In this document: positions 35,600 through 58,268 of the stretch, piece by piece
Numbering within the stretch: position 1 is the stretch's first letter
How the letters are laid out: every line of letters starts with the position of its first letter
Source: Flavobacteriales bacterium
GTDB taxonomy: Bacteria > Bacteroidota > Bacteroidia > Flavobacteriales > JASBRU01
DNA: 64,000 bases
Direction of reading: 5' to 3'
Assembly (NCBI GenBank): GCA_030149285.1
Contig: JASBRU010000004.1
Coordinates: 248,001 to 312,000, forward strand
Position numbers and translations under genes: made by a program
The notes under the pieces: generated by a model
Seen by the model: only the letters and a program-made list of their open reading frames with translations
The model's database searches: none
Told to the model about the DNA's origin: nothing

Positions 35600-35802
35600 A
35601 TTATTTATTAACGTCTGCTGTTAATAAAATCGTATATAATTGTTACGTAAATATTTAGTCAATAGTTTGTAGCAGAAGCATATTTTTTCGGAAGTAGGTA
35701 ACCAATAACCGTGCCGAGGGTTGTAGGACAGCTTCAATTGTTAGACTTGTAAAAGGGGAAAGGTTGCTTAAAGATTCTATTTTTCAATTTGTTTCTTCAT
35801 TT

Positions 35803-36278
35803 CCTTTTGCTTTGATGCAAAACAACCCTCTACTTTCTTTTGCAGCCACCAGAAGTATCTCTTCATTTTCTTTGCGTGTTTATAGAATTAGAGATCTTCC
35901 TTTTGTCTTGATACAAAAGGAACAAAAATCAAGGCTGCTCAAAATCCACTAAAAAACTGCGTTTTACGCTGAAACAAAAGCTGTTTGAGCTCGAAGAGCG
36001 AGTTCTTTTGTTTCTATACGCTTAAAAACTTGTTTTTCTTCACATGAATTTTAAGATGCCGCTTTATTGCTTTCTACGAAAGCAACGAGTCTTCCCTCAG
36101 TATAGTGCTTTGTTTGCGTTAAGAATTTTCGAAGCCTTGGAGAAAATTTAGCAAAGCAAGTGCGGTTTTAGCCTTTAGGCTAAAAATACCTTGGGAAGGC
36201 GGTCTTTTCTTTTGCTTCGTTTTCTTTGGACAAGCAAAGAAAATGAAGAGGCATTTGTTTTCAAGGCAAAATGAACAG
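35803..36278. repeat. Nested inverted-repeat element, copy 1 (476 bp variant)
   Basis: This fills most of the 729-base gene-free stretch 35556-36284. Outer ends CCTTTTGCTTTGATGCAAAA and TTTTCAAGGCAAAATGAACAG, then a second arm pair (35861-35878 with 36231-36248, 17 of 18 bases inverted), then an inner left arm at 35899-35934 like the other copies. The inner core shares the CACTAAAAAACTGCG and TTCTATACGCTTAAAAAC blocks with the other copies; the segment between the CAAAAG / CTTTTG arms is flipped relative to them. The right third is different sequence with its own hairpins. The 62-codon frame across it is not a gene. Confidence 0.8.
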
Positions 36279-42981: not shown

Positions 42982-43048
42982 AATAGTTGCTCTTTGTTTA
43001 TTGCCATAAGTTAATAGGGTTTCTATAGGGATTAATTTTCTCTCCTTT

Positions 43049-43404
43049 CCTCTTGCCTTGGTGCAAAAGGAACAAAAAATCAAGGCCACTCAAAATTCAC
43101 TAAAAAACTGCGTTTTTACACTAAAACAAAAGAACTAGCCTACGGCTCAAAACAGCTTTTGTTTCTATACGCTTAAAAACTTGTTTTTCTTCATGTGAAT
43201 TTTAAGATGCCGTTTTATTGCCTTCAAAGAAAGCAACTAGATGAAGTGTTTCCAGAAATAGCTGTAAATCAAGTGGAGTTGCGCCGACCAAAGGGAGGCA
43301 GGGCATGAAATGATAGATTTATCAGCGGTTTTGCTTGTAAAGCAAAAATTTCCTTAAACAATCTTGAACTTTTGGTTCGTTTTGTTTCAAGACAAAATGA
43401 ACAG
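43049..43404. repeat. Nested inverted-repeat element, copy 2 (356 bp)
   Basis: Occupies most of the 433-base gap 42982-43414 between convergent genes. Left arm 43049-43087 contains a hairpin with CTTGG loop and ends in ATCAAGGCC; right arm 43363-43404 contains TTTTGTTTCAAGACAAAA and ends ATGAACAG. The arms are imperfect inverted repeats. Relative to copy 3, the arms have the same orientation but the whole core (43088-43362) is reverse-complemented, with roughly nine of ten bases matching over its full length. Confidence 0.82.
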
Positions 43405-57888: not shown

Positions 57889-57912
57889 GTTAATTTTTTA
57901 TTCTCTTCCTTT

Positions 57913-58268
57913 CCTTTTGCCTTGATGCAAAAGGAACAAAAAATCAAGAAGTGTTTGAGGAAATTTTTGCTTTGCAGCAAAACCGCTGCTAAATCTTACC
58001 GTTCCATGCCCTGCCTCCCTTTGGTCGGCGCAATTCCACTTGATTTACAGCTATTTCTGGAAACACTTCATTCTATTTGCCTTCTTTGAAGGCAACAAAG
58101 TGGCATCTTAAAATTCACGTAAAGAAAAACAAGTTTTTAAGCGTATAGAAACAAAAGCTGTTTGAGCCGTAGGCGAGTTCTTTTGTTTTAGCGTAAAACG
58201 CAGTTTTTTAGTGGATTTTGAGCGGCCTTGAATTTTTGGTTCGTTTTGTTTCAAGACAAAATGAACAG
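57913..58268. repeat. Nested inverted-repeat element, copy 3 (356 bp), core inverted
   Basis: Fills most of the gap 57889-58289 between convergent genes. Left arm 57913-57948 has the perfect hairpin CCTTTTGC-CTTGAT-GCAAAAGG; right arm 58225-58268 has TTTTGTTTCAAGACAAAA and ends ATGAACAG, as in copy 2. The core 57949-58224 is the reverse complement of the copy 2 core over its whole length. Because the arms are distinguishable and not flipped, this is a core inversion, not just opposite insertion. Confidence 0.83.

Follow-up and report, generated by a model that had tools for sequence, protein, structure and literature searches.

Rare inversion of a hairpin tip in a dispersed palindromic element of Bacteroidota and Negativicutes, probably by replication template switching

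A palindromic repeat occurs three times in the window, the 64,000-nt stretch analysed here (Flavobacteriales bacterium, assembly GCA_030149285.1, contig JASBRU010000004.1, positions 248,001 to 312,000 of the forward strand), which is part of a 2.05 Mb genome in 9 contigs that is 76% complete. Each repeat unit consists of a small 5′ hairpin and a linker, followed by a long hairpin (the rod) with an invariant tip, AACTCGC..GCTCAAACA. In the first copy, this tip lies between the same arms in the opposite orientation. How did it come to be inverted, and does the inversion represent a programmed switch or a mutation? The features of the three copies are as follows.

35897..35922, + strand: 5′ terminal hairpin of copy 1, TTCCTTTTGTCTTGATACAAAAGGAA, with loop CTTGAT complementary to the linker
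35928-35933, + strand: linker of copy 1, ATCAAG, complementary to the loop CTTGAT of the 5′ hairpin
35933..36060, + strand: rod hairpin of copy 1, 128 nt, closing triplet GGC...GCC
35971..35980, + strand: left tip arm of copy 1, GAAACAAAAG (AAAACAAAAG in other copies)
35981..36004, + strand: flipped tip segment of copy 1, CTGTTTGAGCTCGAAGAGCGAGTT
36005..36014, + strand: right tip arm of copy 1, CTTTTGTTTC
36067..36085, + strand: small hairpin, TTGCTTTCTACGAAAGCAA, linking the rod unit with a second unit, of type A, that faces the opposite way
36086..36248, - strand: second unit of copy 1, type A, tail-to-tail, ending in a hairpin at 36215-36248
43047..43211, + strand: 5′ hairpin and rod of copy 2, canonical tip at 43124-43164
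43243..43402, - strand: second unit of copy 2, type B, end hairpin at 43375-43402
58102..58266, - strand: 5′ hairpin and rod of copy 3, canonical tip at 58149-58188
57911..58080, + strand: second unit of copy 3, type B, end hairpin at 57911-57936

The tips of copies 2 and 3 read AAACAAAAG-AACTAGCCTACGGCTCAAAACAG-CTTTTGTTT and AAACAAAAG-AACTCGCCTACGGCTCAAACAG-CTTTTGTTT, respectively. The sequence-only reading of this DNA had described the segment of copy 1 as the reverse complement of that in copies 2 and 3, and we find the same for all five other tip-bearing copies in the genome. When reverse-complemented, the 24 nt of copy 1 agree at 20-21 positions with the 22-24 nt of the other copies (alignment score +12 to +16), whereas the segment as written scores -1.5 to -5.5. 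A palindromic segment would make orientation meaningless, but the tip is identical to its own reverse complement at only 2-6 of 22-24 positions; it is therefore not palindromic, and its orientation is unambiguous. Six rods in this genome carry a tip (copies 1-3 and those at C9:25 kb, C9:138 kb and C5:343 kb), of which five have AACTCGC first, leaving copy 1 as the sole flipped one. Undoing the inversion lowers the edit distance between the rods of copies 1 and 3 (~130 nt) from 18 to 7, which places the flip beyond chance. In addition, the left arm of copy 1, GAAACAAAAG, differs from AAAACAAAAG in the other copies by an A to G change, which completes its complementarity to the right arm. The genomes searched included no congener from which the event in copy 1 could be dated.

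The same reading had also placed the flip within a larger inversion, giving two nested levels in one repeat family. The inner level, an inversion between hairpin arms, stands and recurs in three other genomes, but the outer level was not found: in all full copies in the genome, the relative orientation of 5′ hairpin, linker and lower rod is constant. These copies are collinear through hairpin, linker and rod, have unrelated flanks, and differ solely in the strand of insertion. The span given for the inner flip, 35899-36025, takes in the 5′ hairpin and the upper rod, while the whole rod extends over 35933-36060. Beyond a small hairpin, the rod unit usually has a second, tail-to-tail unit that is of type A or of type B; this arrangement resembles paired REP elements and is not a second nested inversion. 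The complete elements (35897-36248, 43050-43402 and 57911-58266) are composites of outward-facing units that we call X, A and B, joined at a TTGCCTTC..GAAGGCAA hairpin. The type A unit of copy 1 recurs at C9:25 kb and in inverted form at C9:105 kb, and the type B unit contains a conserved stretch, GCGCCGACCAAAGGGAGGCAGGGC. An additional 5′ hairpin motif (TTCCTTTTGCTTTGATGCAAAA), possibly a remnant, lies at 35801-35822, ~96 bp upstream of copy 1.

Across genomes, the order of the element is a 5′ hairpin, an A-rich linker with TCAAG or TCTAG, and a rod with closing triplets GGC/GCC, GTC/GAC or GAC/GTC. In 69 elements, the rod measures 119-149 nt, mostly 124-137 nt. The loop of the 5′ hairpin and the linker form complementary pairs (CTTGAT/ATCAAG, CTTGAA/TTCAAG, CTTGAC/GTCAAG), with a complementarity above that of all 2000 re-pairings across elements; in the CATTG/CTAG class it is only partial. 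The arm sequences of the rod differ between elements and co-vary, since for 35 of 37 diverged elements the best-pairing arm is the opposite one of the same element. Together with the near-fixed orientation of the tip (see below), these co-varying arms indicate that the structure is maintained. No Rfam family scored above its gathering threshold (permissive scans of the window and its relatives gave sub-threshold chance matches only), and no description of the element was found in the open-access literature by sequence fragment or by topic, subscription journals lying outside the search. To judge by Rfam and the open literature, it appears to be undescribed.

The element is common to Bacteroidota and Negativicutes, with up to about 150 copies per genome. 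A search of 398 genomes of the same order with the tip pattern AACTCGCN(2-14)GCTCAAACA gave 58 places in 25 genomes, most of them in the hairpin-linker-rod architecture, against 6 for a reversed-pattern control. A scan of 84,980 species for the flipped tip returned two matches, in Flammeovirga sp. EKP202 (Bacteroidota) and Anaerospora hongkongensis (Negativicutes), and the tip motif is present in 54 of 251 genomes of the class of Anaerospora. Viral contigs contained the canonical form in a few cases and the flipped form in none, and two plasmid searches gave one short match and none, respectively. No protein was recurrently encoded beside the element in a neighbour-protein search. A Y1 transposase was ruled out as an obligatory mobilizer, because PF01797 is absent in five genomes carrying 7-21 motif copies each (G327, G607, G784, G787 and G910); it is also absent in the incomplete genome of copy 1.

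The element also occurs in variant arrangements. Some Negativicutes copies have tip and rod without the 5′ hairpin, with a TTGAGACAAGATTTGCGCGCGCCTC...GTCTCAA outer stem instead, and form a separate subfamily. In two further genomes of the order, the 5′ hairpin forms part of tandem arrays with repeats of 333-353 bp (L053 7433-8619, period 333; L056 2234-3265, period 353). In several genomes, two or more elements follow one another in alternating orientation at distances of about 210-330 bp, reminiscent of BIMEs and REPINs (G776 C13:17506/17735/17949; G787 C1:142519/142851; G910 C1:76984/77257; L070). With 154 tip-motif copies, Flammeovirga sp. EKP202 (L122, G744) would be a good model for studies of copy number and transcription.

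Tabulated over 64 genomes, tips with the same 5′ anchor are canonical in 269 cases (the sum over a per-genome table) and flipped in 4, with none in the reversed-pattern controls. One orientation thus accounts for 98.5% of copies and flips for about 1.5%, a percentage that is not a population rate, as the 64 genomes were picked for carrying the motif and Flammeovirga alone contributes 144 canonical copies, more than half. The four flip-bearing genomes comprise two Bacteroidota and two Negativicutes, and a further 147 genomes from the order to which Flammeovirga belongs added none. Such a distribution indicates a rare event that occurs in place, rather than an alternating switch.

We consider replication template switching within an imperfect palindrome the probable cause of the tip flip in copy 1, with a probability of roughly 80%. 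Three kinds of observation bear on this reading. The first is an orthologous locus with near-identical flanks in two related Negativicutes species, canonical in one (G754) and flipped in the other (G773), where the flipped tip is the reverse complement of the tip of the same locus. The second is the geometry of the flips. Flipped copies carry, between the same arms, the ancestral spacer in reverse-complemented form. The breakpoints differ among the four cases, yet all lie inside the rod arms, with inverted spans reaching from about 0-11 to 33 nt into them. The arms flanking the tip measure 10/10 bp in copy 1 and are longer in the other three flips. The third is the rewriting of an arm. Compared to a near-identical canonical sibling, the flipped Flammeovirga copy has kept its left arm, and its right arm is now the exact complement of it (TTGAGCCTAAATGATTTT/AAAATCATTTAGGCTCAA). 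With a plain inversion, the edit distance falls from 18 to 7 in copy 1, from 28 to 6 in G773 and from 18 to 7 in Flammeovirga, and a four-point template-switch model, which has two more free breakpoints than the two-breakpoint inversion, leaves 6, 5 and 3 edits, respectively. For copy 1 and G773, plain inversion is only 1 edit worse (7 versus 6 and 6 versus 5), so that non-reciprocity is clear only in Flammeovirga (7 versus 3).

Template switching is known to couple the homogenization of repeat arms to spacer inversion where the arms exceed 9 bp (PMC8604942). It can also create hairpin stems and preserve them (PMC8794818), and at quasipalindromes it is established in E. coli (PMC7202029). Applied to copy 1, the event would start from a dispersed, conserved palindromic element with a small 5′ hairpin and a ~128 nt rod. 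The replicating strand would stall in the imperfect palindrome and jump to the complementary arm, where it would copy the tip backwards before returning within the other arm. This would leave the spacer inverted, and one arm could become the perfect complement of the other. We infer this replication step from its products; the event would be rare and non-programmed, and would have happened separately in each of the four flip-bearing genomes. The flip adds a case to a known type of mutation.

Other routes to an inverted tip can be weighed against the same observations. Gene conversion or recombination between oppositely oriented copies could have brought in an inverted tip, with the palindromic arms serving as homology, and there is ample material for it: many copies per genome on both strands, with rod arms that are nearly self-complementary. 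We nevertheless regard it as unlikely, given that the tip stem of copy 1, GCTC-TTC-GAGC, occurs in no other copy in its genome and that the flipped tip in the G754/G773 pair is the reverse complement of that locus's own tip. A programmed switch, in which a site-specific recombinase would act on the arms as in an inverton or phase-variation system, agrees with the inverted segment sitting between inverted arms in every case, but we give it very little credence. Differing breakpoints leave no fixed recombination sites, arm sequences vary between elements, one orientation dominates, and the arm rewriting in Flammeovirga is not reciprocal. A 24-nt spacer is also very short for recombinase inversion, and no recombinase domain turned up in 19 scanned proteins encoded beside or close to the three window copies. 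The arms of the flipped copies thus point to template switching rather than to a recombinase. Least probable of all is an assembly or consensus artefact, as might arise from sequencing trouble at hairpins in a metagenome-assembled genome of this completeness and contig number, since the 44-nt region is short enough for single short reads, the same type of event occurs in named genomes, and the flip at the orthologous G754/G773 locus has collinear flanks.

What the element does is a separate matter, and its maintained structure makes a role as RNA, DNA site or mobile unit testable. Of 22 informative lineages, 17 have more wobble pairs on the TGTTTGAGC..GCGAGTT strand (Wilcoxon p = 0.02). In gaps between co-directional genes, this strand falls in the 3′ region of the upstream gene, by 36 to 12 overall and by 13 to 3 when counted by lineage (p = 0.02). 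Both signals come from one shared set of loci, and wobble was tested first on the opposite strand; they are therefore suggestive only. Selection for RNA on the AACTCGC strand was rejected, as G.T pairs do not exceed A.C pairs (59 versus 100). The two weak strand signals make a 3′-UTR structure plausible, as has been proposed for REP elements, and hint at transcription as 3′-UTR RNA from the TGTTTGAGC..GCGAGTT strand. Wobble pairs make up only about 2-3.5% of pairs in rods, which is low for an RNA helix, so that a role at the level of DNA is also possible. Tentatively, then, rod and 5′ hairpin may form an undescribed structured element that is common to Bacteroidota and Negativicutes, has an asymmetric, invariant tip and co-varying loop/linker pairing, and possibly acts as a strand-specific 3′-UTR RNA. 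If so, a tip flip would move a recognition motif to the other strand, making the rare flipped copies natural mutants and ready-made test cases for the role of the element. In our view, an element that has one architecture across two phyla and is absent from Rfam is of more interest than the flip itself.

Among known dispersed repeats, the ERIC elements of enterobacteria are similar in being intergenic imperfect palindromes, of about 127 bp. They occur in different hosts, and we know of no counterpart in them of the tip motif or the 5′ hairpin. The REP/BIME/REPIN elements with their RAYT transposases are likewise dispersed intergenic palindromes, often in inverted pairs, and, like the element described here, often adjoin the 3′ ends of genes (PMC3733652). 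However, REPs measure 20-40 bp and carry GTAG or CGTC tags (PMC3733652), whereas the present unit spans about 165-180 nt, has a 5′ hairpin, a conserved linker and a closing triplet, and occurs in the five genomes mentioned above that encode no Y1 transposase.

For the flip, the closest comparisons are with two kinds of small inversion. Hairpin-loop inversions in chloroplasts, e.g. at trnH-psbA, also involve a small loop bounded by short inverted arms, but they are frequent enough to vary within species (PMC2903610), while here about 1.5% of copies are flipped. Quasipalindrome template switches share the inverted spacer, complementary arms of at least 10 bp that are made perfect, and recurrent independent events (PMC8604942, PMC8794818, PMC7202029). 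The yeast spacers are 2-5 bp, whereas the inverted stretch here is a conserved tip of 24 nt at its shortest, takes in far more of the rod at its longest, and lies in a dispersed bacterial repeat. In the literature that we found, tip inversion is documented mainly in yeast, chloroplasts and primates; the flips described here provide clear bacterial examples of it within a large natural palindrome, including one at an orthologous locus.
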